DNA of 64,000 bases. It comes from Salminus brasiliensis (Eukaryota > Chordata > Actinopteri > Characiformes > Bryconidae). The notes beneath the pieces are model-generated. The model had not been told where the DNA came from. It did not search any database and worked only from the letters and a program-made list of their open reading frames with translations. Of this stretch, positions 25,104 to 64,000 are shown in pieces. Made by a program: the position numbers and the translations under genes. The stretch is from positions 8,537,581 to 8,601,580 of the forward strand of contig NC_132888.1 in assembly GCF_030463535.1 (NCBI RefSeq), given 5' to 3'. Position 1 is the stretch's first letter, and each line of letters begins with the position of its first letter.

Positions 25104-25190
25104 TATAAAAGCCAGTATTGACCAGGCTGTTCTGCTGCGCTCCAACGGCAATCTGACATCTAACTGAAGACTGCAACCGAGGAAAAAAAG
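25104..25190 (+). promoter_or_regulatory. nos2: nos2 copy A: TATA box and untranslated exon 1
   Basis: TATAAAA at 25104-25110 predicts a transcription start near 25135-25140. The following sequence ends in GGAAAAAAAG at 25190 before GTAAAC, a good donor, so exon 1 is a short untranslated exon of about 50 nt. Copy B has the same arrangement at 61275-61371. I did not see a clear NF-kB or interferon-response consensus in the 400 bp upstream by eye. Confidence 0.7.
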
Positions 25191-25376
25191 GTAAACACAA
25201 GTGCCTTTCCTGAACATCTGTCATTCTTTTATTACCTTCTGTTTTTTAATTTGCATCTGCGTTTAGGAAAACAACAAGAGAGTAATGCAGTTTATACTGT
25301 TAATGTATTTAGTAAATAGCAAACATTATTTTTATTGTTGTTATCGTTAATGTTATTATTAATAACAACATGTTAT

Positions 25377-25407
25377 GATTTATGATGATTATTATTGTTG
25401 TTGTTGC

Positions 25408-25444
<37 letters not shown>

Positions 25445-25569
25445 ATTATTATTATTATAACATTCTGTCTTTTTACCATTTAAGAAACAAGTACATACAA
25501 TTAAGCATAAATACATGAGACTCACCCACTAATAATAATATATAGTAGTAATTGTCTACGATATAATCA

Positions 25570-25642
<73 letters not shown>

Positions 25643-25646
25643 ATTA
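25377..25646. repeat. ATT/GTT microsatellites in nos2 copy A intron 1
   Basis: Two ATT-rich tracts (about 25386-25460 and 25570-25612), the second passing into (GTT)n that runs up to the acceptor TTATTAG of exon 2. The GTT tract therefore acts as the polypyrimidine-like stretch before that splice site. Confidence 0.8.
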
Positions 25647-25676
25647 GAGACTGGCTGGTCTCTAACTGAGGAAACC

Positions 25677-28600
25677 ATGGGGAAGAAGGTCCTTCAAGAT
25701 GATGCAAAGGTGCTCCCACATGGTCAGCTTAACAAGGTCAGTTTAAAGCTGTTATAATAACATATGATTGTGGTAGGAAATGTTGAAGAAACCTACACCC
25801 ACATGTGTCAACAAATAAAACAAAAAATAAATAAATAATCAACAAAAAATAAAACAGGTTTGTTAACTTTCCAATTCTACAGCTGTCCATCAGTCGGTGT
25901 CCCATGTCGATGAGTGTGAAAAACTTTCAGAATGGCTCAAGACACCAGGACACGCTCTACCACCGAGCTGTCAAGGTGGGTCCCTTACAGCACGGTATAA
26001 AAAACCTCAGAAAGTTACTAGAGTCATCTGTATATATCATATCATGCATTCATAGTATTAAAGTTTATGCACAAATAAAAACTGGACAAAAGGGTACAAA
26101 AAACCCCCCCTTGAGATCAAATGATGTGTGAATACATTTCAATAAATTATGTATTTTATAACATCTGTTTTGCTGATTTCTGTCTGTGTTCCCTTCCAGA
26201 ATCACTCCTGTAAACCCAAAGTGTGTGAGGGTTCAATCATGAACCCAAAGTCTTTAACTCGATGCCCCCCTGTATCTCCACCAGCACCCAACGAGCTTCT
26301 CACTCAGGCCATCGATTTCATCAACCAATACTACAAGTCCTTCAAAACGTAGGTCCACTCTAAATACAGGCTTGTGTAAATTTGAATTATGCTCCATGTT
26401 AATGTAAGTAGAAGAGAGAAGTGGAGTGGAGAGAAATCATGCATACTTTTGTAACACAGGTCTAGGATAGAGGAGCACTTGGCCCGTATTGATGAGGTGG
26501 CCCAGGAGATCGACGCCACTGGAACTTATCAGCTCACCACAGAAGAGCTGGCGTTTGGGGCCAAACAGGCATGGAGGAACGCGCCGAGGTGCATCGGCCG
26601 GATTCAGTGGGCCAATTTACAGGTATGAGAAGATTGCTGGCTGATGTTCAGACCTCAGAGACTCACATAATTTTTCAGTCACTGACTCATTGGGCATTCC
26701 TTTTTCTTAAGGGGCAGTGGTGGCTCAGCGATTAGAGCGCCGGGCTATCGATAACAGGGTTGTGGGTTCGATTCCCGGGCTTGGCAAGCTGCCACTGTTG
26801 GGCCCTTGAGCAAGGCCCTTTAATCTCTCTGCTCCCCGGGCGCTAGAGTTGGCTGCCCACCTACCGCTGTGTGTGTGTTCACTACCACAGATGGGTTAAA
26901 TGCAGAGGACACATACATGCACCTTTACCTTTTATGACTTGGTCGGTTGTTTCTCCTCAGCTGTTTGATGGACGTAAATGCAAGACTGCTGAGGACATGT
27001 TCCAGTTCCTGTGTGCTCATCTTAAATTTGCCACCAATGGAGGCAACGTGAGGTAGGCTGGTTTTAGAAGATGCATTGTTTTCGTCTTGGTCTTCTCCTT
27101 ATTTTTATGTTGTTGAATTTATGTGTTATTCTAATTGTCGGTATTTCCACAGATCAGCTATCACAGTGTTCCCCCAAAGAACCGTCGAGGAACATGATTT
27201 CCGTGTTTGGAACAGTCAGCTCATCAAATACGCCGGCTATCAGAGGAATGATGGCAGTGTGATTGGGGATCCCGCCAGTGTGGAATTCACAGAGGTATCC
27301 ATATCCACTTTGGTCTTGTTGATGGCCTTATGGTCTCATGCCAGTGTTTCTCAACCCTGGTCCTGGAGGCACTCTGCCCTGCACTTTTAGTGCTTTCCCT
27401 TCTCCCAACTGATTCAACTAATCAGGTCAACTAACTAGCCCTTTCAGAGTTGCAGGGGTTGTGTGAAAGCAGTGAGTCCACTAAAATGTGCAGAAAAGGG
27501 TGCCTCCTGGACCAGGGCTGAAAAACATGTATGTCTTATGCAGCATAAGATGTAGTAAATTCAGTGAATGTTCGTTTTGCTCATTTTCCAACTCTGAAAT
27601 AACTGTTTGTGTATGCACTGGGTTGTAGCACAGTCTACAATTCCTAATCCTAAATCTGCATTTCATCAGCTTTGTATCCAGCTTGGATGGACACCAAAGT
27701 ATGGCCTCTTTGATGTGCTGCCACTGGTCCTGCAGGCTAATGGAGAGGATCCTGAACTATTTGAAATTCCCCCAGAACTGATACTGGAGGTTCATATGGA
27801 ACACCCACAGTGAGTGATAAATACTTTCTGAACAAATTCTGAGATTTTAAAACCCTTTAGCTTCTTTATTGGTTCCTTAATGAAATCAGGGTTTCATGTA
27901 GTGATACACATACACTATATGTCCAAACATTTGTGGACACCCCTTTGCACCCATCTGTAACACAGATGTAGAAATGCACACACATAGCTTATCTAGTCAC
28001 CGATGAGAAGTACTGCCAATAGAATTGGACTCTCTTCAGCAGATAACCACAAACCTACTGGCATTATGTCTATTGCCAGCTGTGGGCTAGAGGGGTATAA
28101 AGCCCCCCAACATTGAGCTGTGGAGCAGGCATCAGTGTTCTCTGGAATTATGGTTGGTGCTCCATCCAGTACTTTTACGATGAGTTGGGGAGTTGGGGAT
28201 GAGGTGGGATGGGGTGGTGATCATCATCCAACATTCTGACCTCACTGATGCTCTTGTCACTGAATGCAATCAAATCCTCACAGCAATGCGCCTTCAAAAT
28301 CTGATAGAAAGTCTTCTTGCTTGGACAGAAGAGACAGTTACTCCAACAAAAGCAGGATACACTTGTTTTTATTTCCCTTGATTTCTGAAGAAACAATGAA
28401 TGGGCAGGTGTCCCAATACTTTTGTCCATCCAGTGTATCTTAGATATTTCTTTTTAGATTATAGCATATAGAGCATCCTTAAACATGCTTACTTATTTAG
28501 GTGTAGTCATTACAGTCTTTCATAGCTCTTTAAATGTCAGGCTTATTACACTCTATGAGTTCATTGGTTTGTTGGAATTCAGTGATTACATGTTTCTTAG

Positions 28601-31600
28601 TTGGAAAACTTCTGGGCATTTAAGGGGTTAAAAATGTTTCATTGTGGCTCAGTGTATAAAACTTGCCATTCAAACAGCTTTCAACTTTAAAATGTTCATA
28701 AAAATGTCTGAAAACTTTCTGAGCAGAGTCAGTCTGGGCTTTTCAAACCCTTTATCTTCTTTATTGGTTTCTTACAGTTCAACCAGGGTTTCATGCAGTG
28801 ATAAACATACACTATCCAAACATGTCCAAACATTTGTGGACGCCACCCATTGCTCACATAGATGTACAAATAGAGAGAGAAGAATCCTTAAATGGTTCTT
28901 TTTAGGCACCTTTTCAGGCTGTTGCAAACAACATCTTGGCATTTACGGTTCAAACAGCTTGCAACTTACAATTAGAAATTACAGACCTATGAAAAAAGAA
29001 ATTTATATGAACATGGTCCTGTTGTTTTTGTTGGAAAACATATATGCCTGGAATGCCGAAGAAGTGGGTCATTCAGGACTACGCTCAAGCAGAGTGCCTG
29101 AAAATACAAGACAGTGAGAGCATAAGAAGTGAGCCTTAGTGGGTTTCGTAAACACAAAGCTGTGTTTCAGTGATTGGCTAGTCTGTAAGTGTTTACTTCA
29201 GAAATTACAGCTGAACATTTTAATGTTAGCAGAGGTGGTATGAGATGCAATCTCAATGAGATCTAGTGATAGATCAAAAAGCGCGAAATTTGCAGGTTGG
29301 TTAGTTGTATTTGGTCAGTGTTGTTTGTGCAGACCTCCAAGGCTCTTCACTGGCTTAAGGTCTCTCAAGGCAGCTTGTGTTCTACTTGAAATCGTAGTAA
29401 AACTTGACTAAATCTCCTGGCTCCACGAACACAAGAATTCCTAAGTCATTGAAGCCTCTGTCATTGAAGGGTCTGCAATAAAAGAACCCTTAAATCAACC
29501 ATCCCTTCATTCCTGAAGATCAGGGTTGGAGTGCCAAAGCCTTTAGTCCTCAATAAAACCTGTCTCTTTGCCACATTCTTTCATCCAGACACAACAAACC
29601 AGTTTCGCCTGCCCAAACTAAGGAGGTCCAATGGCCACTGAGGCTTTCCTATTCCCAGAACGCCTCAACACTTCACTCCCAATCTACTAATTAGCTTCCT
29701 TGAGCTCTGTGTGAATTTCAATGAAGTGCTGTCAGCTGGAGCCCGCAATCTGCTCCCGAATCTGAAGTACTGAGTAATGTAATGAGAAGCTGTAATTGAG
29801 CAAAGAATGGTCTATGGGTTTTTGGTAAGACGCATTTAGGTCTAAATAGTATATTAAATGTAGTAGACACTGATCAAATGTCTGGTTCTGCCCCACACTT
29901 ATTCTTTCATCCAGCCCACTTATTTAAGGACTTCATTGGTTTCATTAAACCCAGGTGCCAGAAAACGGCCACAGTTATGTCTGTTTTGGACTGAAATCTA
30001 TACAAATGTCCCACATTGAAGGTCCAGGGTCAATGTTACATGTAGCCCAGAGTTCAAATGCTATGACAAACTGCGGCTGCACAGTACATTTAACATAGCC
30101 AAACTCTTTAACTTGTCATATTTGCAAGCAAAGTCTATTAACTTGGTCATATATGCCACAGAATGCCAGAGAAAATTTCCAAAAAGGGCAAAAAATCTTA
30201 TCTTAGCTAACATTATATTGGCCAACTAATATTGTCTAATTGGCTGTTTTTAGTATCACATTATATTTAATTAGTAGACCTAAACCTAAACTACTACACC
30301 TAAACCTAATACTATATCTATACTTAGGCTAATTTATGCCTAGCCTTAACCTAACATCCTGGTTGCACATGTAAATATAGGTGCATATAGATCAATAGTG
30401 GCAGTGTGAAGTTGGGACTTAAGCGGTTTGACCAATGGTTGACATAGATGCAAGTAATGTAGACCAATACTGATGGTAAGAAGTCAGGACCAATTTGACC
30501 AATGGTTGACATAGATGTAGATAATGTATGCAAATACTGGAGCTAAGAAGGTGTGTTTAAAGCTGTACAAAGACTGTATAAATATACAGTGATGTAAAAT
30601 CAGTGCGGAATCCAGGGAATTTTACCCAATTTAGAAATCCCAGCCAGACGCATCCCACATCCCCAAAAGAGAACATGAGGGGAAAAGGTCTGGGAAAAAG
30701 AAAATGTCTTAAAGATGTATTAAAACAGACATTAACCACTGCACCTATGTATACTCTATATCTCTGACCCTTTATTAATTGATGGTGATTTCTTTTGTAT
30801 TTAGTTACGAGTGGTTCAAAGATCTGAACCTCAGATGGTACGCCCTGCCTGCAGTGGCCAACATGTTGCTGGAGATTGGTGGTCTTGAGTTTACAGCATG
30901 CCCCTTCAATGGCTGGTACATGGGCACTGAGATTGGAGTGAGGGACTTCTGCGATCCTCAGCGCTACAACATTCTGGAGGTGATTTTAGCACTCTATTTA
31001 ACCAGAACAATGCAGGATAGTATAAAGGTTTAGATTATGGCACTGAGTTCAAACTAATCCCTGCTTCTGTTGCCTTGTGTCCTGCAGAAAGTTGGTCGTT
31101 ATATGGGCCTGGAAACACAGAAGCTGTCCTCACTGTGGAAGGATGAGGCTCTGGTTGCCATCAATGTTGCTGTCATTCATAGTTTCCAGGTACATTATGT
31201 AAAACAAATGCAGACCCAACATTTATTACATGCTTTTGATGATTTTTAATAGGGTCCACTTATTTATGTGGGTCTAAAAATAAGCTGTAAACGTAGTCCT
31301 CAGTTTTTGAATGCTGCTTTGTTTTACGCTCCAGAAAAATAAGGTGACCATCACTGACCACCACTCTGCAGCCGAGTCCTTCATGAAGCACATGGAGACT
31401 GAAGTGCGCCTGCGTGGGGGCTGTCCCGCTGACTGGGTCTGGCTGGTGCCGCCCATGTCTGGCTCTCTTACCCCAGTGTTTCACCAGGAGATGATCAGCT
31501 ACATCCTCTCTCCGTTCTTCTACTACCAGGTATTATTAATGAACATCTGTATATTGAGGGTGTGCTCATCAACCATCCAATTATTTAAGCTAATTTCAGC

Positions 31601-34600
31601 TTATTTTAGCTATAGTAACGAGTCTTCTTAGAAGGTACAACAGGTGTGGTGACCCTGAATGCACTAATTAAGCCTTAAAAGTCCTATCTTTAATTTGCTT
31701 ATGTAACAATATTGTCACTCATTGGCTTTTCTTCCATTTCACCTAATCTTGTGGAGAATTGCTTAACGATTTCCTGGTCTGGTCATTTCTGCTGTTTTCA
31801 GTCTGACCCCTGGTTGACATATACATGGAAAGATGAAAAGAGAGGTCTGAAAAAAGGAAAAATGATCACCTTCAAAGGTCTGATAAGGTGAGGCAGCGTC
31901 ATAGCACTCTTCTTCTCAACACAATTTTAACTCCTACAAATCTGTACTAAATCTGTACTATATTACGACTGTTTTTCACATCTGCAGGGCTGTGGTCTTC
32001 TCTCAAATGCTCATGCAAACAGTCTTGAAGAACAGAGTGCCTTGCACCATCCTCTACGCCACTGAAACTGGGAAATCACAGACTTTTGCCAAGAAGCTCA
32101 AGAAAATACTCAGCTGTGCCTTCAACCCCAGGGTAAGACAAAAGCGCACTGTTCCTTGAGGAACCTATGGAGGTTCTTTAATTGGAAACTGTGGAGAAAT
32201 CTCTTAAGGTGCTATGAGGAACCTTTAAGATACATTTTTTAGAAGAGAAAGTTTCCTTCAGGGTTCCTCAAAGCACCTAAAGAGGTAAAGAACCTTCAAA
32301 CGTTCTCCAAGGATCTTATACTTTTAACAGTGTGGACCGAACTTACGTTCCTGCCTCTTTCTGAAACAGCTGCTCTGCATGGAGGACTACAATTTTCATG
32401 AGCTTGAGAAAGAGCGTCTCCTGATGGTGGTGACCAGCACCTTTGGCAATGGAGAACCTCCAGGAAATGGAGTGGTATGGACACTCATTCACATTAAGCA
32501 ATTCATCATCTGTGTTGAAATATCATCTACAAAATGTCAAAGCTCTCATTTTATTATAACATGTTATAAAGCAGCAGAGCATGGAGCTCGGCCTTTGATC
32601 AAGATTAGTAATATCACAAGCGAAAATATCTAAACTTAATTGCTCAGCACCTTAATAACTTAAACACCAGCCCACTGTTAGTGAGCAATTCAGTCAAGAG
32701 TGGAGTATGTGCAAATGGTACAACTAATCCCATTGGCCAGGTTCATTGTTCAACAGATGGAGGGGCTAGTTGTAAGAGTAAGTCCACCATCATTGAAAAA
32801 ATATGGTGAAGATGAGACGTGAACTAGGGCTTCACGGTATATTGATTCAGCATCACTATCGCAATGTGGCAATAGTCGCATTGCAGAACATGCAGTGTCA
32901 CCTCAGGCAAATTAAATCAAACATGTGCTTTGCTGTATGATACAAGAGAAAATTCCCAGTGTTCTCATTTTCCATCGCATATCTGCCCAGGATTATTTAT
33001 TTTACTCTAATATTGGACATACAGAGTGCATTATTAATATGTTGGATCATTAGCATATTGTGACTTCTGGTGAAATCTGGAAAACAAATACCTGTTTTTT
33101 AAAAAATGTAAGTAATTTCAGTATCATGCAGCTCTGTATTAAACAGAGTGACATGTAATCTATTTAATTAGGAGATAATACATTGTTGCAGTCCTGCAAA
33201 AATCAGATCCAGTATCCAGATTTTTATCCAGATCTAATAGGAATGCTCTTAAAGTACTCCCAAATTGAACTCTGTGTATCAGCTCACAAACATCTAAATG
33301 TTTTAAAATATCTGTGGAAATGGGTGGAGTTCTCATTATTTTATTGGTTGACTTTGTGACTTATAATGCAGCATGACAACTGATCCAGCCACGTGAAGGC
33401 TGATTATTAGCATGGCCAGTTCTCACTGTGAGTTATTTATGCCTTCAAAATGTGTGACAGGCACCCAGAGGATGGATAAAGTATCTAAATCCAAAATCAC
33501 TGAAACTAAAATCACTGAATTTAGTTAGTTACTTACTTTTATTATTAATAAAACTGAAAACGGAACAATGGAAAAATTACAATTTTTAGATAAAAAATTA
33601 TGTCTGACTGGGCGAAAATTCACAAATGACAATGCTATGGGAATATGACCAGTGAGAAGATGACCAAAAGTATGTCCAACTGTTTACATAAAAATCTATG
33701 CTACACTTTGTTAGTTTGAGTCAGTGTTCATGGCAGTGTAACCATTCATAACTAATGTTTCTAATGTAGTTTTTTTCTTCTTTTTTAAAGAGTTTCAAGA
33801 AGCACCTTTACAGCATTAAAGACCTGCAGAACGTCAGGTAAGTCCAGTTCAGTAAAGGACTTAGCAATGCCCTTGAAGAACCACTGATGGTTCCATAAAA
33901 AAACGTATTTGTAAAGAAGATGAAGAACCATCACTTTTCTAAATATGGTACAAATTCTGCTTTGTAGCTCTGTTATTTTGTAAGAGTAAGAGTATGCCCT
34001 AATTCTCATCTGCTCTCGTCACACAGGTACTGCGTCTTCGGCCTCGGCTCTCGGATGTACCCGCAGTTTTGTGCGTTTGCTCATACTGTGGATGATAAGC
34101 TTGCAGAGCTGGGAGCCAAGCGTGTGACCTCCATTGGAGAAGGAGACGAGCTGAATGGGCAGGAAGAGGCTTTTTCAGCCTGGGCTTGCACTGCGTTCAA
34201 GGTTGGTGAGGCACCATTCATCTTAAATGGCAATAAATAGCATTTTTCACTTTGTGTGAATGATCTCTGGTTTTGTGTTGTAGGCTGCATGTAAGGAGTT
34301 TGGCGTTAAGGGTCAGCTGTCAGGGGCTGAGCGTCTAACAGACAGCTGGGACCCTCAGAAGCACAGAGTTCAGCCTGACAGCTCCACTGTAGACCGCATC
34401 TCAGGTACAACATCCAACTTCTAAAGTGTCTAATGTGAGGTGATGCTAAATGAATGGAAATATATTGGGATACACAGTAAGGATTTATATTAGTTATATA
34501 ATTATATTTTTCCGCAATAGCAGAACTCATTTCAAATCAGTGGGAATTTTGTGTTAAAAGTGATAAGTGAAAAAATTGAATTCCATTGATCACAACACTA

Positions 34601-37600
34601 TTCTGTAATTAATTCTGATTAATCACAAGTTATAATGCTAGCTAGCACATACTTAAAATTTTGGGCCGGAGAACAAATAAATGTGCCTAATAAACTGTCT
34701 AGAGGAATCCAGGTTTTTTGTTTCTTATAATATAATATATGTAGTTTTGAGACCTTTAACTTTTTAAGAGATAAATGGATGATCAGTCATTGGTCTGGAT
34801 TAAGCTAAAAGGTAATAGTAGAGTAGCTGTGTGTGTGGCGGGTGGGGGGGGGGGGGGGGGGGGGTGTTAGTTAATTATGAAATTTAATCCGTATTTCAAC
34901 ATAAATAAAGTGTAATCTACCCTCCGAGCTCAAAAGTAGGGACGCTGTGTTTACATCTCTACATCTCTAAATAAAACCCCTAATACGTCACTAGGCTCTG
35001 TAAAGACAGAGAGACCTGTCTTTAGTTGGGGCCTAACTTGGTATGATGATTAATTTGCATTAAAACAGGATTGACAGCACTAATAATATAAATAATTATA
35101 TGAATCTTATATTATATATGTCAGATACTGAACTGTACAGACCAGGAGTGCACAATGTGACTCGATATGGCTGCATTGTGAATTCAAAGAGCTTCTGAAT
35201 GAATGTCTATGTTAGGCTGTATTTAATTACTCAAACTGCACATAGAAATGTGAGGCACAGGGTTTTAAAGCTGCAGTGAAATAGTGGAGAAATCAATAAG
35301 CTCAGGACAAGGGATTAAGTGATTAAGAGACCACCTGCAGACTCCACAGGGGTGTAATTCTATTCTATTCTATTCTATTCTGGTTCAAAAAATGTAATTG
35401 AGAAATAAAACAAAATCTGTGGTATTCTTCCCTGTTTAGCCTATTTTTCCATGTATATGGACTATAAACTAGTAGGCGTTTATGCCTTATATGTTTTATA
35501 CATAACATGCATGCATATTTTAAGCAGTATTCCATGCAAATTTATTGTTCCTGATCTCCCCATACAGTCAGGAAGTGGAATATCGCACTTTGCTCAACCA
35601 CTAAAGGACGCACTTTACACATGCATTTTACAGGCTGAGACATACAGCAATATGACTCAGGTTACACAGTGTTATGCAGTTCTCACTTACGCAGTTCTGC
35701 CCGCTTCACCAAAGCTACACAGTGCTGTTTCTGGCATGCCGAACCCAGAGTAGCAACAATAGGGGTGCTATTCTCCCTATTACAGTCAGTGGAGCATCAC
35801 AGTGATTTTTAAGCTGTGATTTGGAGGTAAAAATGTTATGCTATGCTATTCTCAGGGGTAGTACATCCAGTCCTGAGTCTTCAGGTGCTATTAGTTCTGC
35901 TTTAGTTGTGTGGCCACCCTGAAACCCCATACTGCCTTCTCTCCTTTAACAGCTCTCTCAGCACTCCACTCCAAGGCTGTGTTCTCCATGAAGCTAAAGA
36001 GGAGGAAGAACCTACAGAGTCCACGATCAAGGTTGGCTCTCAAACCTGAAGTGTAGTTTTCTTAGTAGTTTACTCTCGTAGTTTGGTTTGCTATAATGTA
36101 AATTTCTCTTTAGACGTTCTACAATCCTGGTAGAGCTGGAGGTACATGGAGGAAAAAAGGATGTTCTGAAATACGCTCCTGGAGATCACGTTGGGGTTTT
36201 CCCAGGGAACTCGGCCGAGCTGGTGACTGGCATTCTGAAGCACCTCCCCAATGTCCCTCCCACCAATCAGACCCTCCGCCTTGAGTACCTCCCTGACTCC
36301 AGCTTAGGTAATAATTCATTCATCTTCCATCTTTTGTCAGATATGGTGTGTCATGGATAAGTGTAGGCTGATGGTTGAGATGATGGAGAGCATGTTGTCC
36401 ATGATTAGGTCTTGAGAGATTTAATCGTACAATCAGGGATCTTTGTGGTGTCCTGCAGGAGGCACACAGTGGCACACTGATTCTCGCATCCCAGCATGCC
36501 CTCTGGCCAAAGCTCTTACATACCTCCTGGATATCACCACTCCACCTTCTCAAAGCTTCCTGCACAAACTTTCACAAATGACCAATCAGGATGATGACCG
36601 ACAGCGTCTACTGGCTCTTGCAAAGGTGCTCTTTCTCATTCTCATTAACACAACTGGTAAACCAAATATAGCATACATAACCAGTCAAAAGTTTGGACAC
36701 AACATTGCCCCCCTCCCCAGTCATGACATCCTACATCCATGACAACTACAGGTGGCCCCAGAATCCTTTCATTGCATTTGGATCAGTTTTAAGATTTGGA
36801 TCAAAGTTTAAGATTATAATCAACACACATTTAACCAGGTGTGTCGAAACTTTTGACTGGTGCACTTTTTTCATCATATAATCATTGTAAAATTGGCTTA
36901 AATGTAAAAATGGCTTTAAATTTAAACCAAATTAGGACAAATAAAAAGTTTGATTGCAATGGAAGTTTGAAATATTGGTCCAAAACCGTTTTTTACCCCC
37001 ATATTACTAAAATAAAATCTAAAAATATGATTATTTAGGTGATTTTTTTACTTTTTTAGATGTAAACTGTTTGTAAGAGTAACTTCATTCTTGTGTACAG
37101 TATGTTTGAACTTCATTGATCAAATTGCGCCGTACTTCTGTAGGACTTCAAGGGTTACTCAGAATGGAAGGAATTCCGTCGGCCCAATTTCCTGGAGATT
37201 CTGGAAGAGTTCCCGTCCCTGGAGATCTCTGCCGCCTTCCTCCTCAGCCAGCTGCCCCTGATGAAGCCCCGCCTCTACTCTGTTAGCTCCTCCCCTGACC
37301 TTTACCCTAATGAGCTCCACCTCACTGTCTCTGTGGTCAACTACCGCACTCAAGGTAAAGTAAAATCTATACACAATACTATTGTCCACACAGAGAAGGA
37401 CACAGCGATGTTTACAATGATTTGTCTAGTTGACTGAAATCCTAATTTGTTTATTTACTCAGGTGGGCACGGTCCTCTGCATCATGGTGTCTGCAGCACA
37501 TGGCTCAACACCCTCAAAGAAGGACAAATGGTGCCCTGCTTTATTCATGGGTACGAACGACACATTCCTTTTACTTCATGTTTAACAAGAAAAAGTGCAG

Positions 37601-39138
37601 CGACCAGTTGAGTTTGAATTCCAGTTTAAATGTTTGTTTATTTGCTTTTCTAATGATAATTTCAGGTCTAGTGGATTCCACCTTCCATCAGACCCCAGTT
37701 CTCCTACTATTCTAATTGGAGCTGGAAGTGGAATCGCCCCCTTCCGCAGCTTCTGGCAACAGCGTTTTCATGACGTGAAAAAGACAGGTACTCAAAGCTC
37801 CAATACGTAGACCTAGAGTCTATTTTTGGAAACAGAAGAAATTATGTGGACTATTATGTGGAAATATGAAGATGCTTCATGCCACAGAAGAACCTCTTTG
37901 GGTTCCATGAAGGACCATGGTTGTAGTAGAGATGTGTGAGTGTAAAGGACCTTTAAATTGGTAAAGAAACTTCACACTCACACATCTCATTCTTTATGGA
38001 CCCAAAAAGTTCTTCCCTGGCAGAGGTGGGCAATTTCAGTCACAGGGAACCAGATTCCTGCACAGGTTTGCCCACCCCTGTTCTATGGGATCATTCAAAG
38101 AACCCTTTAAAACACCTATTTAACTAAATGCGTAACTTTTGCTTGCAGGTCTGAAAGGGAGTCCAATGATGCTGGTGTTTGGCTGTCGTAGTTCGGACAC
38201 AGATCATCTGTATAAAGAGGAGACTTTTGAGATGAGGGAAAACGGCACTCTGAAGAGCATCACTCCAGCATACTCCCGCCAGGCTGGACATCCCAAGGTA
38301 CGCCTTCTTCACTTTTTTTTTCATCTGAATATTTACTGAGATCATCCACCTGACTGAGAACTGACACCTTAAGTGCATCCATCTGTTTCTGTTTGTATCT
38401 TAAAATTATAATTGTAAGAAATTACATTTATTTGCAACAGCATAAGATAATAATCAGCAATAATAACCATTGTTCTTTTGGGTTAGGTATATGTTCAAGA
38501 TGTCCTTAGGAAGCAGCTCAGTGAAGAGGTTTGGCAGGTCCTTCACCAGAGCAGTGGGCACCTGTATGTGTGTGGTGGCATGAACATGGCCCGAGACGTC
38601 GAGCACACCATAAAGGAGATCCTGGTTGGCAGACTGGGAATAACTATCAAAGAGGCTGTAGAATATCTGGAGAAACTAAAGGTGACCACTCATGGTGTCA
38701 TGGGCACCATATATAGGCTCTTGATCTACATATACTTCACATCATTAAGGATGCTTCTTACCTTCTAATAATTGAATGGTGGTCTTGAACCTTTCTAATA
38801 TCCAAGAGAAAATCTCTTTGGCCTCCAGTCGTCTACGTAGTCGCCCTAATAGTTGCTTATCTGGTCCAGAAAGAGCTATTCTATTGGCAATACTTCTCTT
38901 CAGAGATTTGCACCTCTGTGGGTGCAGAAATGGGTCCAACTTAAAGTAAGAGTACATTTATTAGAAAGGGGTGTCCGCAAACATTTGGACATGTAGTGTG
39001 ATATTGGATACAACTGCCAAATGAACTAAATATGAATGTAGTCTAAAAGTCCACACATGCAAAAACTATTTTTAATGACTTCATGATTTCTGTTTGCAGG
39101 CTGAGAAGAGGTACCATGAAGATATCTTTGGGGGCTAG
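25677..39138 (+). CDS. nos2: Inducible-type nitric oxide synthase, copy A, complete (1077 aa)
   Basis: NOS2 makes NO and citrulline from arginine, O2 and NADPH. There are 25 coding exons: 25677-25736, 25883-25975, 26200-26348, 26460-26622, 26961-27052, 27153-27294, 27670-27809, 30805-30979, 31088-31189, 31335-31529, 31802-31887, 31988-32132, 32370-32474, 33791-33837, 34027-34201, 34284-34404, 35953-36031, 36114-36307, 36459-36625, 37144-37354, 37463-37550, 37666-37787, 38149-38297, 38487-38681 and 39100-39138. All use AG/GT and sum to 3234 nt (1077 codons plus TAG) with no frame break. The ATG at 25677 follows a 5'UTR splice and gives MGKKVLQDD. The order is haem oxygenase, calmodulin linker, FMN, FAD, NADPH, as in all NOS. 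The absence of the 40-50 residue FMN autoinhibitory loop supports NOS2 rather than NOS1/NOS3. The C-terminal tail after RYHEDIFGG is absent. Probably cytosolic and transcriptionally induced. Confidence 0.97.
26711..26932 (+). mobile_element. tRNA-derived SINE (family 1), copy 3, in nos2 intron 5
   Basis: Starts GGGGCAGTGGTGGCTCAGCG, with B box GGTTCGATTCCCGG, body AAGCTGCCACTGTTGGGCCC and tail ATGCACCTTTACCTTTTATG. It sits close before exon 6 in the sense orientation. Copy B lacks it at the matching intron (63574-63666), so the insertion came after the duplication or was lost from B. Confidence 0.87.
27342..27530. mobile_element. hAT-like MITE, CAGTGTTTCTCAACCCTGGTCC family
   Basis: The left end CAGTGTTTCTCAACCCTGGT with CCTGGAGGCAC is an inverted match of the right end GTGCCTCCTGGACCAGGGCTGAAAA. 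About 190 bp, no coding capacity, in nos2 copy A intron 7. Confidence 0.75.
27810..30804 (+). other. nos2: nos2 copy A intron 8, ~3.0 kb, repeat-rich
   Basis: The largest intron of the gene. It holds a full CACTATATGTCC-family MITE (27913-28436) and a degenerate second fragment near 28800-28860. A local duplication is visible: CTTTATTGGTTTCTTACAGT with TTTCATGCAGTGATAAACAT near 28760-28810 resembles the start of the intron at 27862-27910. TTGACCAATGGTTGACATAGATG recurs near 30427 and 30495. No extra exon is seen. Confidence 0.75.
27913..28436 (+). mobile_element. MITE-like element, CACTATATGTCC family, near full length
   Basis: Left end CACTATATGTCCAAACATTT and right end CCCAATACTTTTGTCCATCCAGTG are imperfect inverted repeats (CACT...AGTG). 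Interior phrases TAGAGGGGTATAAAGCCCCC and GAGACAGTTACTCCAACAAA define the family. About 524 bp, no ORF. Confidence 0.8.
31802..32132 (+). other. nos2: nos2 copy A: calmodulin-binding linker and start of FMN module
   Basis: Exons 12-13 encode a basic, hydrophobic linker ([13 protein letters not shown], then [18 protein letters not shown], about residues 447-478), matching the calmodulin-binding site of NOS. It is followed directly by the FMN phosphate-binding motif [10 protein letters not shown] (about 488-497). In NOS2 calmodulin binding is tight and largely calcium-independent; this is a family property and was not tested here. Confidence 0.88.
32370..34404 (+). other. nos2: nos2 copy A: FMN (flavodoxin) module, exons 14-17
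   Basis: Contains [34 protein letters not shown] and [16 protein letters not shown], the FMN-binding loops. Exon 14 ends GTG|GTATGG, giving V where mammals have E; an alternative donor three bases upstream (GGA|GTGGTA) would drop that residue and keep frame. Intron 14 (32475-33790, 1.3 kb) shows no gene. Confidence 0.88.
34405..35952 (+). other. nos2: nos2 copy A intron 17, ~1.5 kb
   Basis: No exon seen. It contains a run of 21 Gs at 34844-34864 and a TTCTA pentanucleotide repeat near 35360-35382. Short open frames have no recognisable similarity. Confidence 0.75.
34844..34864 (+). repeat. 21-nt poly-G run
   Basis: Uninterrupted G run on the coding strand of nos2 copy A intron 17, following GTGTGTGGCGGGT. 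The exact length may be affected by sequencing. It could form a G-quadruplex in the pre-mRNA. Confidence 0.85.
36681..36862. mobile_element. MITE with CCAGTCAAAAGTTTGGACAC termini
   Basis: Left CCAGTCAAAAGTTTGGACAC, right GTGTCGAAACTTTTGACTGG: near-perfect inverted repeats 182 bp apart, typical of a Tc1-type non-autonomous element. In nos2 copy A intron 20. Confidence 0.85.
37861..38125. repeat. Palindromic GGTTCC/AGAACC repeat in nos2 intron 23
   Basis: CACAGAAGAACCTCTTTGGG, GATGTGTGAGTGTAAAGGACC and its mirror TTCACACTCACACATCTC form a hairpin-like element. A CAGAGGTGGGCAATTTCAGT / TTTGCCCACCCCTGTT pair (38024-38084) inside resembles a short hAT-type MITE nested in it. Confidence 0.6.
38800..39003 (-). 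mobile_element. Half copy of CACTATATGTCC-family MITE, in nos2 intron 25
   Basis: Ends GGGGTGTCCGCAAACATTTG then GACATGTAGTG, the inverted form of the family's left terminus, and has CTATTCTATTGGCAATACTT. The other half is missing. Confidence 0.65.
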
Positions 39139-40185: not shown

Positions 40186-41134
40186 TAAAAATGCAATTAG
40201 TAATTAATAAAGCCAGAAAGCAATACATTTGGTGTAGGGTTAACTATTTCCAAACCTAACCTTAATGAAGCCCAATATTGTTATTATAGTTTAATTATTA
40301 ATCTGAAAAAAGGGTTAGCACAAAAAATGTTAAAATTAGACAATTAGACCTACTTATTTAATACAAATTCAAGCTAAATGTCTGATTCAGGAGGTGAAGA
40401 CAGCCAAGTATATGCATTGAGGGAGTCATTTAGTTATTATTTGGTGTATACATTGTGCCTAAAATATACATCAAGCATTATTAGTAGTGAGAACTCAGTA
40501 TAATTAGTATAATTTTTAAAACAAATTCAATAAGGATAGTTAACAAAATGTTTATCTGAGCAATGTGAAATGTACCCCCAATTCTAGCCACATTCTATAA
40601 ACATGGTGATGTTGTGCATGGCCAGAAAGGCCCCATCACATGCTATTCATTTTGATTCCAATCATGGTTTTGCAAAATTATCCCGTGAAAGGTTTTCAAG
40701 GGTCATTTTTAAAATTTTTATTTTTTTTATAATTGCTTCAAAGAACCATTTTTAAAACTCTGTGTGTAACAGTGCATGAGCTATTATTTATCAGTAAATA
40801 AAATAAAGTAAATATCATTAAATATAATTAAGGATAAGAGGTTTAGACGATTATATGCAATAAATGTGGTTTTGTACTGTTAAAAATATTGATTCTTTTG
40901 AGCAGTAGTGTGTTTCGGGTGGACTACTAGTTTCCTTTACCCATTTATGGACTTCTTCCTCTGTGGACAGCCTGAAACACAGGGGAAACAGGGCGGTGGA
41001 GCTGATATCAGAGCCTGCTTCTCTGTTCCTCCAGCAAATGATGTAGGTTTTCCTTCTCTGCATGACCTTTCTGTTCTGTTTGGTCTTTCTTCACCTACTT
41101 AGTGTAAATTCCTACACTCATGATTTGTCATTAG

Positions 41135-41295
41135 GGGGCAGTGGTGGCTCAACGGTTAGAGCGTCAGGCTATCGATAACAGGGTTGTGGGTATGATACCT
41201 GGGCTTGGCAAGCTGCCACTGTTGGGCCCTTGAGCAAGGCGCTGGAGTTGGCTGCCCACCGCTCTGGGTGTGGGTGTACTCACTGCCCCTAGTTC

Positions 41296-41339
<44 letters not shown>

Positions 41340-41394
41340 AATGCAGAAGACACATTTCGCTTTACAGTGATAAATACATGCACCTTTACCTTTG
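41135..41394 (+). mobile_element. tRNA-derived SINE (family 1), copy 4, inside inverted repeat
   Basis: Starts GGGGCAGTGGTGGCTCAACG; degenerate B box; body AAGCTGCCACTGTTGGGCCC; GT run; tail ATGCACCTTTACC. TTTGTC flanks it on both sides (probable target duplication), and the right arm of the inverted repeat keeps the uninterrupted site (TTTGTCCAGCAAGAC in reverse). Confidence 0.88.
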
Positions 41395-41556: not shown

Positions 41557-42789
41557 TATATAGTTTGTGTATAGTTATATGATGTGTAAAGTTTGGCTCA
41601 GCTCGGCTCTCATTGGTTGAAAGTCTATCAGGTATGATATCAGGATAATGAGTCATAAATATTAATCATGTATTAAAAAAAATATTAAATATATTAAACA
41701 GACTCCGACTGTACTGAAAGAAGATTGGAAGACTACAGGTTGGATTATAGACACCACACTCTACAGGATAATCAGGAAAATTATAGTTAACAATCTCCCT
41801 AAAAATCAGGAGCAACTTGGCCTCAAAATCAGCCCGCAGTGTGGGCCAGGCATACACAATTAATATCATCATATTTGCAACAAATTTTCATGAAATCTTG
41901 CTTATTGAATTGTCTTGTAAACAACTCATTCATTTCCTTCGAGAGGTCCTTCATCAGGTAAGGCTGAAGCAGCACAATGGTAGTGAGGTTCTTGAACTGT
42001 ATGAACCCCCAGTCTTTCAAAGCTTTCATCTAAGAGAGCCCAACAGGGGGCTCCACTACCTCTCATTAGGTCACCTGCTGTCCGATGATTACAGAGTCTT
42101 GCTGGACAAATCATGAGTGTAGGAATTTACACTAAGTAGGTGAAGAAAGACCAAACAGAACAGAAAGGTCATGAAGAGGAAGAAAAGCTACATCATTTGC
42201 TGGAGGAACAGAGGAGCAGGCACTGATATCAGCTCCACCTTCTTGTTCCTCGTTGTTTCAGGCTGTCCACAGAGGAAGAAGTCCATAAATGGGTACAGGA
42301 AACAAGTAGTCCACCCGAAACAAATTTCTGCTCAAGATAATTCCGATTTTTAACAGTACAAAATACATTTTATGCAGACACACATCTAAACCTTTTAAAT
42401 ATTGCATGCTTACTTTTCTTTATTTTATTATTTATTTATTTATTTGTTGACATTTAATGATTGACTGTCATTAAACAATTGATAACAATTGACTATGCCT
42501 TCACAATTCACAAAACACAGCTCCTGGACTAAACTTAAATAAATTGTAAGCAAAGTAAAATGAATAGCATGTGAGTGAGGCCTTGTATGGCCTTTCTGGT
42601 CATGCACACCATCGCCATGTTTGGCAAAAAAAGGGATGGCATACCAAGCACCTGATAAGCACTGACTGAGATATGGTGGTGAATGATGGTGGTCATTCAT
42701 GCTTTGAGGCTTTTACTGCTAGTGGTCCAGGGGTCTCAAACCAAGGTCCTAATAAATTCATGAAGTACCAAAAGGCCTCTCTATGAGCC

Positions 42790-49699: not shown

Positions 49700-50462
49700 T
49701 GCTAGAATAGAAAGGAAAAAGAAGGAAAGAAAGAACAAGAAAGAAAGAACTTGAGAAAAAGAAAGAAAAGAGAAAATAAAGTAAGAAAAGGGGGAAAAAT
49801 GAAGGAATGAAGAAAAGACAATAAGAAAAAAAACTGAAAAAAGAGAAAATAAAAAGAGAGAATATAAAAAGAAGAAAAATAAAGATAAAAAGAGAAGAAA
49901 AAGGAAAAAAGTTATAGAAAACAAATAAAAAAACTAAAGAAAAAAGAAAGAAAGAAAAGAAAAAATGAAGAAAAGAACAAAAGAAGAAAATAGAAAAAAA
50001 GAAAGAAAGAAAGAAGTAAAGAAAGAAATGAGAAAGAAAATGAGAAAAAAGTTAAAGAAAGAAACAAACAAACAAAAGGAAAGAAAGAATGAATTAAATA
50101 AAAACAAAATACAAAAAGAAAGAAAGAAAGAAAAAGAAAAAAGAAAGACAAACAATAAAGGGAAAAAGAAAGAAAGAAAGAAGTAAAGAAAGAAATGAGA
50201 GAAAATAAAAAGAGAGAAAACTAAAGAAAGAAAAATGACAAATGTGAAAGAAATAAAATGGGAAAAAGAAAGAAAAAGTGAAAAGAAAGAAAGAAGAAAA
50301 AGAAATAAAGAAATAAAAAGAAAAATGAAAGAAAATGAAGGAACAAATGAAGTAAATAGAAAGAAAGAAAGAAAAAGAATAAAATAAAAACAGAAAATGA
50401 GAGATCGAAAAAAAGAAAAAGAAAGAAAGAATCTAAGAGAAGTAGAAAGGGGGGGGGGGGGG
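49700..50462. repeat. ~760 bp polypurine (GAAA)n tract ending in poly-G
   Basis: Almost entirely A/G on the + strand, composed of GAAAGAAA, GAAAAA and AAAGAAG units, ending in 14 Gs at 50449-50462. It yields long Lys/Glu (+) and Phe/Leu/Ser (-) open frames that are composition artefacts. Strong triplex potential. Confidence 0.94.
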
Positions 50463-52892: not shown

Positions 52893-53097
52893 TAAAGTAG
52901 TGGTGGCTCAGTGGTTGGAGCTCCGGGCTATTGATGACAGGGTTGTGGGTTTGACATCCAGGCTCGGCAAGCTGCCACTGTTAGGACCTTGAGCAAGGTC
53001 CTTTACTCTCTGCTCCTCGTTCACTGGAGCTGGCTGCTCACTGCTGTGTGTGTGTGTGTGTTACATGATACAGTAACAAATACTTGCACCTTTACCT
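52893..53097 (+). mobile_element. tRNA-derived SINE (family 1), copy 5
   Basis: AGTGGTGGCTCAGTGGTTGG, degenerate B box GGGTTTGACATCC, body AAGCTGCCACTGTTAGGACC, tail TTGCACCTTTACCTTTTTT. The most diverged of the five copies; part of the 3' body is deleted. Confidence 0.8.
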
Positions 53098-53136
53098 TTT
53101 TTAACACCTGCCATTATCATGCAGTTTTGCTAATCG

Positions 53137-54997: not shown

Positions 54998-56392
54998 TCA
55001 AATGAACGCATTCAGCTACTTTAAATTTCTGACCATGCCTAATGCCAGGTATGGGCTAAAGGGGTATAAAGCCCCCAGCATTGAGCAAGTAATAACTGTT
55101 GAAACTTTCCATATATAATCTTATAAATAGATACAAATAAAAATAACTATGAACTATAGATTCACATTAACACATTAACATTAACTAGCTAATGCAGCTG
55201 TTTTTTAGGGTTCATGCATCTGTGATCATCTAGCTGTGAACATGTTTAAATTAAACATATTGGACCACCATTTGGTCCCATTGTTATTTCCCCCTTCCAT
55301 ACCTCACTGGCCAATGAGGAGGAGACATTAGAATCATCTGAATGTGTCATCAGTGTGACAGTCCAAAGGGTGAAACGTGAGCTTTCATAAATAGCATTTT
55401 CTTCTCACCTTGAACAAATGGAACAAATAAACAATCCTCTGCTGTAATCAAACCCTGAAGGTGATGCTATCACATTCAGGCACTCTACATATTTGGCTGT
55501 CGGTAGTTTATAAAGGGCTGGATTTCTCCACGTAAATGTGGGGAATTCTGCACTAGAGAAGACGCAAAATTGACGCTTTATGCTGTGGGGCTTTTCCTCA
55601 TTCTGAACAATAAGACCATTCATCGGCTCCATCATCACAGGCCTCACGTGTTCCGTGAAATGACCCAAAACTCCAGCTGGTGTTTTTTTTTTAGAGAAGA
55701 ATGTAAATTCAGGAAAAGTGTGCTGTGGAAAATAAAATGCCACAGGGAACATTCGGACACCCTTAAAACAACAGGGCAGTAGGCCTTCACCTTTATTGTG
55801 TGTCCGAGCGTTTGTAGAGGCCTGCTCATCAAACATTTCTTAAATAAAAGGTTCTCGATATTAAGTTTGCCCCATTTTTGCTGCAGTAACTGCAGAGCCG
55901 ACCCAAGGCATATTCAAATTACACGGCCGCATAGGGCTCCAACGCCACCAGGGTCCCCCAAGAGCACCAAGATATCATAGTAAAAAAATCTATATTTTAA
56001 AAATAACATTGAATAATAAAACAAAATGATATTACACAGGTAAAAGCAATTTTTATATGAATTTATTTTCATAGGCACATCAATACTAGGTTACTCAGTT
56101 CCTGCTGTTGGCTGCTGCCACTGTTGGGCAAATGCAGATGATGCTAATCATAGTGGTTACGTTACACACACAGTGTAGCCTATGAAATGATGAAGCATCT
56201 GGTGCTAAGATTTGAGGGGCCCCAAATGAAAAACTGCTTAGGGCCCAATAAAGGCTTGGACCAGCCCTGAGTAACAGCATCTACGCTTCTGGGTAGGCTT
56301 CTCACTAGGCTTCTACCCCTCCAGAAAATGCAGTTCCACTGCTTCACAGCCCAATGCTGGGGGGCTTTATAAGGCTCATGTTCAGCTGCCCC

Positions 56393-56394: not shown

Positions 56395-56457
<63 letters not shown>

Positions 56458-56636: not shown

Positions 56637-56649
56637 ATAAATATATATA

Positions 56650-60600: not shown

Positions 60601-60643
60601 TGTCAAAGTGTCCTGAAATAACTGACTGTTCACTTGCTGCGTA

Positions 60644-60645
<2 letters not shown>

Positions 60646-60676
<31 letters not shown>

Positions 60677-60690
60677 ATATATAATATATT
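60646..60690. repeat. (AT)n microsatellite
   Basis: Interrupted TA run of about 45 bp, 0.6 kb upstream of the copy B TATA box. Confidence 0.88.
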
Positions 60691-61274
60691 ACACACTAGT
60701 ATTACTCAGTAATCATAGGATCTTCTGTACAAACTGGTGGAGCTATTCTCTGGTAATAGAAGTTTGTAATAACACTTTTGGCCTGTCTGCAATTCATAGG
60801 TTTTTTAATGGGTTAATTAAACCCATTTCTTTTGGTTTCTTTTGGTTTGTCTATGGCATTAATCTAAAGAACCCTTACTGACACATTGTACAAAACATTA
60901 TAAGTATGTCCAAAAGTCAAAATTGTGCTATTAGAAATCAAAAAGTTTTTGGTTACAAAAGGGTATATTCATTGTTCCTTAAGTGATGTATTTTCCATCA
61001 GATTATCAGATGTTTTCTAGTTTGTGGGGGTAGTGGTTCAGAAATGTGACATTCTGCATGTATTCAGTGTATACAGTTACACAATTCTGTATGCAGAGTT
61101 TTACCCGGTAGTGGAGAAGAAGTGAAACTAATTGAGCCTGTTGAAGAGATTCCAGAGTTTGATAATATGAATCAGAAACCAAAGATCTAATATTTAAAGT
61201 TCTTTCCTCCTGCTTGGAATAGTGCCCACTGGGATGAGACAAAACATGACCTGCCCCAAATCTGGTGTGTAGAC

Positions 61275-61371
61275 TATAAAAGGTCCCAGGTTTCAACATT
61301 CATTCACTGTAGGGCACTGCAGCTTCCATTAGTTACTGAGGAAGAAAGCCTGCTACCTGAAAGGCGCAAAG
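61275..61371 (+). promoter_or_regulatory. nos2: nos2 copy B: TATA box and untranslated exon 1
   Basis: TATAAAA at 61275-61281 predicts a start near 61305. The exon ends AAGGCGCAAAG at 61371 before GTACAATTG. Structure matches copy A (TATA, short untranslated exon, intron, ATG in exon 2), but the promoter sequence is clearly different from copy A's apart from the TATA box, so the two genes may be regulated differently. Confidence 0.7.
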
Positions 61372-61593
61372 GTACAATTGTTATTATTATTTTTTATTAT
61401 TATTATATTTTTGTTATTTTAGTTTAAGTAACACACCTAATTTTGTCTTTAAATGATAAAGTGATGTGATAGTTATGGTAGTAACCTACTATTAGTCTCT
61501 TTTTCTGTTAATATTATGTGCTTTTTTTTCTCTTTAGCTCTTCATCAACATATTTATCATCACAGTAACAGAACCTAATATATTTAATTAAGC

Positions 61594-64000
61594 ATGGGGA
61601 AGATGACCATCGAAGAGGAGCTGCCTCAGACTCAGCCTAATAAGGTGAGTAAGGAACCCAATTCTGACAATTCAGACAATTTGGACGAAAATATTGGGAC
61701 GCACCTCTTAATCACTGAATTCAGTTTCTTTCATTCAATAGCATTGCCACAGGTGTATAAAATCAAGCACCTAACCATGCAGTCTGCCTTTACACGCATT
61801 AGTGAAAGAATAGGTGGTTCTAAAGAGCTCACTGGATTCTGTAATAGGAACCACCGCTGCAGCAACAAGTTGGTGTATATTCCTACCTCTTACATATTCC
61901 ACCGTATATGTATCAGCTGTAAGTGGTATTATTGAACAGTGGAAGTGTTTCGGAATCACAGAGAGCAGCTCTATTAGTCACGAAGTGTCAGACCACACAA
62001 AGTTACGGGGTCAGGGCTGAGTGCTGAGCTCAGAGCATAGTGCAGAAAAGTCTCTAACACTCTGCTGCCTTAATAAACAGAAAAGTTCCAGGTGTGATGT
62101 ATAGGTGTCCCAATACTTTTTGTCCAAATAGTGGAGCTGTAATACAGTCCACTAAGAGTGACAGACCAAGTAAAAGGTGTTGTTTCGCTGATGTCTAGTT
62201 GCTGGGAAGGCAAAGCAAACTTAACTTATCCATTATATCTAAAGTATTTTACATACCAAAATAAACACAAATGAGGTGCATCAAACATGCACAATAATAA
62301 TATATCATTTTTTAATTACTAATTAATAATAAAGTAAGGATTGTAAAGTAAATGAAAATACAGAATAATGAAGTACGCTCCTAAAACTAAAGGTTCTTCA
62401 AAGGGTTCTTTTAGAAATGCTACTTTCGATTTCATAAAGAACGATTGTAAAAGAGATTTGTGAGTGAGGTTCTTTAGACCTTTTAAAGGTTCCTCACACA
62501 TCCTTGCTACAACCCTAGTTCAGTTTGGTGCATGTAATATGAGTCTAATTAAAGGTTTTTAATCTGCTTGGAAAAGTGTCTCAATTTGAGCCACAACTAC
62601 AATCTTCTGGTTCCAGCTGTGGGTCATTCACTGTACTGGTTCACCACATAGGTTGAGTCCCCATTCCTCCAGAGCGGGGTTTTCAATGAGCTACTTTTTG
62701 ACATGTAATTTTGTATTGCATTTTATAATGTATTGAGAAACTGTTACTGCTTTTACGAAAGATAATATGAGCGTTGTTGTCCTCACTCTTCAAGTCTGGA
62801 AAAAATGTACTAAGAAACTTTTACTGGTTTGAAACAAGACAATAAGAGTGTGGTTGTCTCTGCTTTTCAGGTCAGGGAGAACAAGATCAGCCGCTGCCCA
62901 ATGGCAATGCAAATGAGGAACTATCAGAACGGCTCCACACACCAAGATACACTTTTTCACAGAGCCATTAAGGTGTGTATTCAAATATTGTTTTGGAATC
63001 TGGATTTGAAACCTAAAGAAATGAGAGAATTACAGTCTTTTTTATTAAATGACTGCTATACTGTCTTTAGACTTTTATTTGGCAGTTATTTCACAGGGCT
63101 GAAATCCATTATTTTCCTAAATTTACTCAAAACATTTGGTAAAATACTTTATTTTCTCTTCCAGAACCAGCTCTGCAAACCCAAAGTGTGTGAAGGCTCT
63201 ATTATGAACCCGAAGACTCTCACCCGCTCACCGGACGACGCCCCACCAACCCCTAATGAGCTTCTCATTCAGGCCATTGACTTCATCAACCAGTATTACA
63301 AGTCCTTCAAAACGTAGGTCTACTGTAATTCACATCAACTTACTCAATAAACTGGAGGTTTAGTCATTAGGCTTAATTCTGACTGATTCTATTGTAATCA
63401 TCCAACACAGGTCTAGGATAGAGGAGCACTTGGCCCGTGTTGATGAGGTGGCCCGGGAGATCGACACAACAGGAACTTATCAGCTCACCACAGAAGAGCT
63501 GGCGTTTGGGGCCAAACAGGCATGGAGGAACGCGCCAAGGTGCATCGGCCGGATTCAGTGGGCCAATTTACAGGTATGAGATGTTTGTATTCCTTCAATT
63601 ATAGACTACCTTCTGATGAATGCATTGGTTACATGTGAATACAAACATGCAGTGGTTCTTCTACAGATGTTTGATGCACGCCAATGCAAGACTGCCAAGG
63701 ACATGTTCCAGTTCATGTGCTCTCATTTGAAATTTGCCACAAATGGAGGCAATTTAAGGTACAAATTAATCAGGCACTTACATCTTTTGACTAATTTAAT
63801 GAGATATTACATATCCAGAGGTAATATTACATCCCTCTTTATTCATCTGTTTGTTTTACAGGTCAGCTATCACTGTGTTTCCTCAAAGAACTGATGGGAA
63901 GCACGATTTCCGTGTTTGGAACAGTCAGCTCCTAAAATACGCTGGCTATCAGATGGAGGATGGCAGTGTGATTGGGGATCCTGCCAGTGTTGAATTCACA
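61594..64000 (+). CDS. nos2: Inducible-type nitric oxide synthase, copy B, N-terminal 232 codons (truncated by window end)
   Basis: Coding exons 61594-61644, 62871-62972, 63165-63313, 63411-63573, 63667-63758 and 63862-64000 (runs off the window). All have AG/GT borders and the frame is open. Exon 2 begins in a 5'UTR at about 61538 and the ATG gives [12 protein letters not shown]. Exons 4-6 are exactly the length of copy A (149, 163 and 92 nt) with the same phases. Exons 2 and 3 differ in length (51 and 102 vs 60 and 93 nt) yet sum to the same 153 nt. The zinc motif CKPKVC (Cys55-Cys60) and haem ligand Cys145 in [12 protein letters not shown] are intact. The final residues are GDPASVEFT. Nothing visible suggests a pseudogene, but the substrate Glu, calmodulin site and reductase lie beyond the window. 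Introns 3-6 are short and lack the SINE found in copy A. Confidence 0.95.
61676..62138 (+). pseudogene. Mariner/Tc1-like transposon remnant in nos2 copy B intron 2
   Basis: The left end TTGGACGAAAATATTGGGAC and right end GGTGTCCCAATACTTTTTGTCC are inverted termini. The interior starts like a Tc1/mariner transposase N-terminus ([15 protein letters not shown]..., near 61800-61850) but has stops, frameshifts and an internal deletion. Inactive. Confidence 0.75.
62378..62517. repeat. Palindromic GGTTCTT/AAGAACC repeat
   Basis: AAAGGTTCTTCAAAGGGTTC, CATAAAGAACGATTGTAAAA and GAGGTTCTTTAGACCTTTTA belong to the 37861-38125 family; in nos2 copy B intron 2. Confidence 0.6.

Follow-up and report, generated by a model that had tools for sequence, protein, structure and literature searches.

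An old head-to-tail pair of nos2 genes in Salminus brasiliensis, with one exon most likely gene-converted

A 64,000-nucleotide stretch of the genome of the characiform fish Salminus brasiliensis (assembly GCF_030463535.1, contig NC_132888.1, positions 8,537,581 to 8,601,580, forward strand; hereafter the window, in which all positions below are counted) carries the inducible nitric oxide synthase gene, nos2, and then, before its last letter is reached, begins it again. On balance it is very probable that these are two paralogous nos2 genes, lying in the same direction with ~22 kb between them, at a NOS2 locus conserved among vertebrates, which arose by an old local duplication and whose fourth coding exon has most likely been gene-converted. 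The pair itself is an old head-to-tail duplication: the two copies, here called A and B, are adjacent, read in the same direction and share the positions and phases of all five coding introns visible in copy B. A head-to-tail tandem pair had been proposed in a first-pass annotation of the bare letters, and spliced gene models, Pfam domains, matches in the PDB and the divergence of A from B all bear it out. The start codons lie 35,917 bases apart and 22,137 bases separate the stop codon of copy A from the TATA box of copy B. When the copy A protein was searched against the 64-kb window by tblastn, no third NOS-like piece was found, the hits outside the exons of both genes having E-values of 1.6 and 6.1.

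Copy A is intact, as first annotated, with 25 coding exons that splice into 3234 nucleotides (1077 codons and a stop) and no internal stop; all 24 of its coding introns run from GT to AG. Pfam recognises in its protein, in order, NO_synthase (E 7.8e-178), Flavodoxin_1 (2.4e-36), FAD_binding_1 (3.5e-62) and NAD_binding_1 (2e-19). The top row of the PDB search is a near full-length neuronal (nNOS) chain, 8t1j, matched in two stretches with 1292.7 bits in total, and no near full-length inducible (iNOS) chain occurs among the best 60 of the 126 matches. For the heme domain the best chain is human iNOS, 4nos (743.6 bits, E 2.9e-222), with nNOS reaching at most 639.9 bits and endothelial eNOS at most 625.3; these scores place copy A nearer iNOS than either nNOS or eNOS over this domain. 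Among the 47 PDB matches of the reductase half there is no iNOS reductase chain, and the comparison there is with nNOS only. The nNOS alignment splits at residues 828-850 of copy A, where nNOS has extra residues, as expected if copy A lacks the autoinhibitory insert in the flavin mononucleotide (FMN) domain that is a feature of nNOS and eNOS (PMC10904358). Read from this alignment, copy A is without the insert, a trait of the iNOS kind. It resembles human NOS2 both in this absence and in the match of its oxygenase domain to 4nos. The motifs RCIGRIQW and GGLEF, which we take to hold the heme-ligand cysteine and the substrate glutamate respectively, are both present and align to 4nos and 1nsi, and near the N-terminus both copies carry CKPKVC, a CxxxxC pattern that is presumably the zinc/dimer motif. 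The linker, the region of the calmodulin site, aligns to nNOS and is followed by the FMN, flavin adenine dinucleotide (FAD) and NADPH domains; calmodulin binding itself is predicted. Such an enzyme would make nitric oxide (NO) from arginine, using NADPH, heme, tetrahydrobiopterin (BH4), FMN, FAD and bound calmodulin.

Copy B opens with an ATG and keeps its frame to the window edge, which cuts its sixth coding exon at 139 of 142 bases. The earlier statement that it repeats the same gene structure 22 kb downstream stands for the 6 of 25 coding exons that the window holds, if the 22 kb are counted from the stop of A to the TATA box of B. All five visible coding introns run from GT to AG and, judged from the lengths of the exons, their phases agree with those in A; exons 3, 4 and 5 are equal in the two copies (149, 163 and 92 bases), exon 1 has 51 bases in B against 60 in A and exon 2 has 102 against 93. 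Pfam finds NO_synthase (E 1.1e-66) and the best PDB match is human iNOS, 1nsi (E 1.4e-94, 319.1 bits), followed at a distance by eNOS (265.3 bits) and nNOS (254.6 bits). RCIGRIQW is present; the GGLEF region, the calmodulin site and the reductase domains lie beyond the window edge. The MGxxx[S/T]-type N-terminus is the consensus for N-myristoylation. Copy A begins MGKKVLQD and copy B MGKMTIEE, so that Gly2 is kept in both, with Lys at position 3 and no Ser or Thr at position 6. Neither copy has the consensus, unlike the N-myristoylated Nos2b of zebrafish, carp and goldfish (fish examples from PMC6386840).

The new point here is the near-identity of coding exon 4, which suggests gene conversion. 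Base differences between A and B number 6 of 163 in exon 4, against 34 of 149 in exon 3, 15 of 92 in exon 5 and 19 of 139 in exon 6. Silent changes affect 2 of the 49 degenerate codons of exon 4 that encode the same residue in both copies; the corresponding figures are 12 of 19 for exon 2 (over the stretch that aligns), 17 of 40 for exon 3, 7 of 23 for exon 5 and 8 of 39 for exon 6 (Fisher p for exon 4 against exons 2, 3, 5 and 6 in turn: 5e-7, 1e-5, 0.004 and 0.02); with exons 3, 5 and 6 pooled the contrast is 2 of 49 to 32 of 102 (Fisher p 6e-5). Shuffling of codons gave p = 0.0003 for a window of 54 codons this poor in differences and p = 0.007 for the longest identical run, of 65 nucleotides. 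A conversion tract of about the length of the exon is the most likely reading of these patterns. One literature search that paired gene conversion with fish nos2 brought up a single paper, on avian receptors. In the history that we propose, a local duplication of the unequal-crossover type would have given rise to the pair, purifying selection would have acted on the coding sequence while introns, 5' exons and promoters drifted apart, and exon 4, bearing the presumed heme-ligand motif, would most likely have been re-homogenised by conversion.

A number of results weigh against this account. A run test on silent changes only gave p = 0.07 for exon 4, fourfold sites alone gave p = 0.019, and the remaining exons are themselves heterogeneous (p = 0.011). 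The GC content at third codon positions (GC3) of exon 4 (A 0.69, B 0.65) is not raised and falls within the 0.41-0.75 of the other exons, so that a signature of GC-biased conversion, which was considered, is rejected as unsupported. When human iNOS served as outgroup, relative-rate tests counted 9 changes in A against 3 (chi-square p 0.08, binomial p 0.15), and with nNOS in that role 6 in A against 3 (p 0.32 and 0.51); copy A as the faster-evolving copy was dropped because this Tajima-type test is not significant. Furthermore, 19 of the 25 coding exons of copy B lie outside the window, which leaves room for a decayed 3' half.

The weak silent-only run test, the differences among the other exons and the ordinary GC3 also speak for an explanation of exon 4 in which the nucleic acid itself, DNA or RNA, is tightly constrained, say by splicing signals within the exon of the heme motif, and no gene conversion took place, as does the high conservation of the peptide that the exon encodes. 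We regard this as doubtful but as having some real chance: the likeness is confined to the exon and a few intron bases (a shared aacacag before it and gtatgaga after it), and exon 6, whose protein is also conserved, nevertheless carries silent changes in 8 of 39 such codons. Gene conversion remains our preferred reading of exon 4.

How old the pair is can be judged from its divergence. The two proteins agree at 185 of 229 aligned residues, with a nucleotide identity of 0.825 (82.5%), and over 229 codons the divergence is 0.109 per nonsynonymous site (dN) and 0.678 per synonymous site (dS; NG86 method). Outside exon 4 dS runs from 0.52 to 1.44, near saturation (it is not computable for exon 2), which favours a pair that predates or coincides with the teleost genome duplication over a later, lineage-specific event. 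Such an origin is unlikely, given that A and B share 81% of their visible aligned residues against the 68.4% of zebrafish Nos2a and Nos2b (figure given in PMC6386840), with the proviso that the regions compared differ; with exon 4 left out, 122 of 152 residues are shared in a stretch of 206 columns.

The small part of copy B in view, 6 coding exons, would equally suit a 5' fragment or pseudogene whose remainder was not duplicated or has decayed. This we think a rather poor prospect, in that frame and splice sites are kept in all six exons and the A-B dN/dS of ~0.16 indicates purifying selection on the visible part; moreover, at the 121 positions common to human iNOS and nNOS, B departs 21 times and A 23 times. 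Copy B would more probably be complete and functional, and its expression may differ from that of copy A.

Last, two haplotypes of a single nos2 gene could have been assembled end to end, as the shared direction of A and B would allow and as commonly happens in fish assemblies, but this possibility, which the first-pass annotation had itself named as one that would undo its claim, is rejected as extremely unlikely: a coding difference of 17.5% of nucleotides with a dS of 0.68 means that A and B are not alleles, and their shared introns differ in length (146 against 1226 bases in coding intron 1) and in 5 of 5 cases align no better than shuffles. The remaining intron lengths, A before B, are 224 and 192, 111 and 97, 338 and 93, and 100 and 103 bases, and in introns 1 to 5 the global alignment score was reached by 70, 181, 13, 89 and 156 of 200 shuffles; blastn pieces that span the short introns 3 and 5 owe their match to the flanking exons.

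At its C-terminal end copy A departs from its mammalian relatives. Mammalian and insect NOS have, according to PMC10904358, an identical eight-residue tail base, after which comes a C-tail of 20-40 residues; the list of tails given there covers mouse, rat, cow and two insects and no fish. Copy A stops one residue past RYHEDIFG, which we take to be this tail base, so that a C-tail would be absent, whereas the nNOS chain 8t1j has 33 further residues after RYHEDIFG and mammalian NOS have a C-tail (PMC10904358). A tail of 20-40 residues, which copy A does not have, is not regarded here as defining in fish. A short run of G adjoins the stop codon of copy A, in its last coding exon. Zebrafish Nos2a and Nos2b, at 1081 and 1078 residues (PMC11201229), are about as long as copy A, from which a short or absent C-tail may be usual in teleost Nos2. 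When the tail of iNOS was deleted by engineering, reductase activity rose 10-fold and NO synthesis by 15% (PMC10904358). The end of copy A would matter if teleost Nos2 in general turn out to be natural counterparts of such tail-deleted laboratory enzymes.

Two further differences lie in the NADPH site of copy A, which reads CGG (in the exon at 38487-38681) where nNOS and cytochrome P450 reductase read CGD, and GAGSG where they read GPGTG, both compared with the same 5 of 62 matches, three of nNOS and two of P450 reductase; one of the two P450 reductase chains reads CGA at the CGD site and is apparently an engineered mutant. CGG falls in the loop that matches Asp632 of P450 reductase, a loop that takes part in NADPH binding there (PMC12472590). 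One might go on to imagine a division of labour, in which a tail-less A with an altered NADPH site would gate electrons differently and yield more superoxide or a faster reductase turnover, B would stay canonical and conversion would keep the heme pocket common to both, but this is a long shot.

In human NOS2 the first exon is untranslated and the ATG lies in exon 2, an arrangement that the predicted first exons here resemble. The first-pass annotation had given each copy a TATA promoter and an untranslated first exon of its own; in both, TATAAAA is indeed found together with a donor (GT) and an acceptor (AG), and the first exons remain predictions. By count alone TATAAAA is not rare, with 0.26 and 0.71 expected per stretch of one kb, and a second one lies upstream of A at 24529. 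Over 720 bases of promoter and first exon (from 600 bases ahead of the TATA region to 120 past it), A and B align with a local score of 25, which 30 of 200 shuffles reached. That promoters and first exons do not align is compatible with the divergence in regulation that had been read from them, and is equally the neutral expectation at this age; different regulation of A and B would be possible. In the kilobase that precedes each TATA box there is no strict consensus for NF-kB, the gamma-activated site (GAS), the interferon-stimulated response element (ISRE) or AP-1. One relaxed NF-kB site, read on both strands, lies upstream of A at 24142 (0.25 expected), and each copy has two C/EBP-like sites (0.83 and 1.15 expected), the counts being set against mononucleotide shuffles only; both would be weak hints at most. 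With promoters that have diverged and an exon that was probably converted, the pair offers a usable test case for regulatory splitting of immune genes.

The neighbours argue for an old address. Upstream of copy A lie the 3' exons of a protein-kinase gene, presumably nlk: its first two open fragments, when joined, match Pfam Pkinase at E 3.6e-4 with a sub-threshold 20.4 bits (cut-off 31.7), the three fragments singly have no Pfam match at E 0.05, and a PDB search with the last two joined gave no relative below E 0.71. Between it and copy A, on the other strand, stands a gene with an LYR motif that we take to be lyrm9. NOS2, LYRM9 and NLK occur together at the LGALS9 locus of gnathostomes (PMC10343441), and with neighbours of both kinds the window most likely represents the ancestral place of NOS2. 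Of ten open fragments of the window searched against Pfam, seven gave no family. A clusterin hit at 55507-55779 (E 0.016) fell below the cut-off and was dropped.

Table 1. Position, strand and basis of the features described in the window.
Feature	Position	Strand	Basis or remark
nos2 copy A coding region, 25 exons, 1077 aa	25677..39138	+	spliced model from open frames and splice scores; Pfam domains; PDB relatives
Copy A coding exons 1-13	25677-25736, 25883-25975, 26200-26348, 26460-26622, 26961-27052, 27153-27294, 27670-27809, 30805-30979, 31088-31189, 31335-31529, 31802-31887, 31988-32132, 32370-32474	+	
Copy A coding exons 14-25	33791-33837, 34027-34201, 34284-34404, 35953-36031, 36114-36307, 36459-36625, 37144-37354, 37463-37550, 37666-37787, 38149-38297, 38487-38681, 39100-39138	+	
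Coding exon 4 of copy A, near-identical to that of B	26460..26622	+	6 differences in 163 bases; NG86 dS 0.087
Last coding exon of copy A	39100..39138	+	ends RYHEDIFGG; no C-tail apparent past tail base
nos2 copy B coding exons 1-6, 232 aa visible	61594..64000 (61594-61644, 62871-62972, 63165-63313, 63411-63573, 63667-63758, 63862-64000, last cut by window edge)	+	Pfam and PDB
Coding exon 4 of copy B, near-identical to that of A	63411..63573	+	comparison of bases and silent sites
TATA box, copy A (inferred)	25104..25110	+	word TATAAAA
Putative untranslated first exon, copy A	25134..25190	+	start inferred at about TATA+30; donor 25190/25191
5' untranslated part of exon 2, copy A (inferred)	25648..25676	+	acceptor score; acceptor before 25648
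TATA box, copy B (inferred)	61275..61281	+	word TATAAAA
Putative untranslated first exon, copy B	61305..61371	+	next exon would begin at 61538; inferred from sequence
3' exons of protein-kinase gene	7821..10699 (open fragments 7821-8042, 9059-9316, 10550-10699)	+	Pfam Pkinase, below cut-off
LYR-motif gene, two exon-bearing fragments	19134..20567 (20301-20567, 19134-19310)	-	Pfam Complex1_LYR E 8.6e-6 (above cut-off) and 0.012 (below)

Repeats are scattered through the window. Several diverged direct repeats of ~0.15-0.4 kb each, seen as blastn pairs, fill 21465-23951, within 4 kb upstream of the copy A promoter, and a dispersed repeat recurs in five places (15696-15942, 19402-19683, 26711-26914 in intron 4 of copy A, 41131-41393 and 52899-53100). 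Shortly past copy A lies an inverted pair, 40835-41129 and 42105-42397, alike at 88.5% over 295 bases. The sole Rfam hit in the window is the 3' element of a UnaL2 long interspersed nuclear element (LINE; RF00436) at 43888-43941 on the minus strand, with 55.5 bits at a cut-off of 55, and long low-complexity arrays, rich in CT and in A or AG, occupy 4650-5364 and 49704-50431.

Unlike the Salminus pair, human NOS2 is not known to have a second copy at its locus. Zebrafish, like Salminus, has two nos2 paralogues near copy A in length (1081 and 1078 aa, PMC11201229), and it differs in that its nos2a and nos2b are not in tandem: they are 68.4% identical (PMC6386840) and lie on different chromosomes (PMC9137985), as the first-pass annotation had stated. 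It had added that a local pair could be lineage-specific; independent, lineage-specific Nos2 duplications are indeed published for cavefish, catfish and northern pike, in a paper that also records the loss of nos2 in Neoteleostei (PMC10342570), which fits the suggestion and at the same time means that pairs of this kind were known before. A near likeness is to the channel catfish (Ictalurus punctatus), in which two nos2 genes in one teleost are described as nos2.1 and nos2.2 or as nos2b1 and nos2b2 (PMC9137985 and PMC6386840), names that appear to denote the same pair; the likeness to Salminus is one of description. The Salminus genes are thus a nos2 pair of an already known kind, and the picture of the family is unchanged by them.

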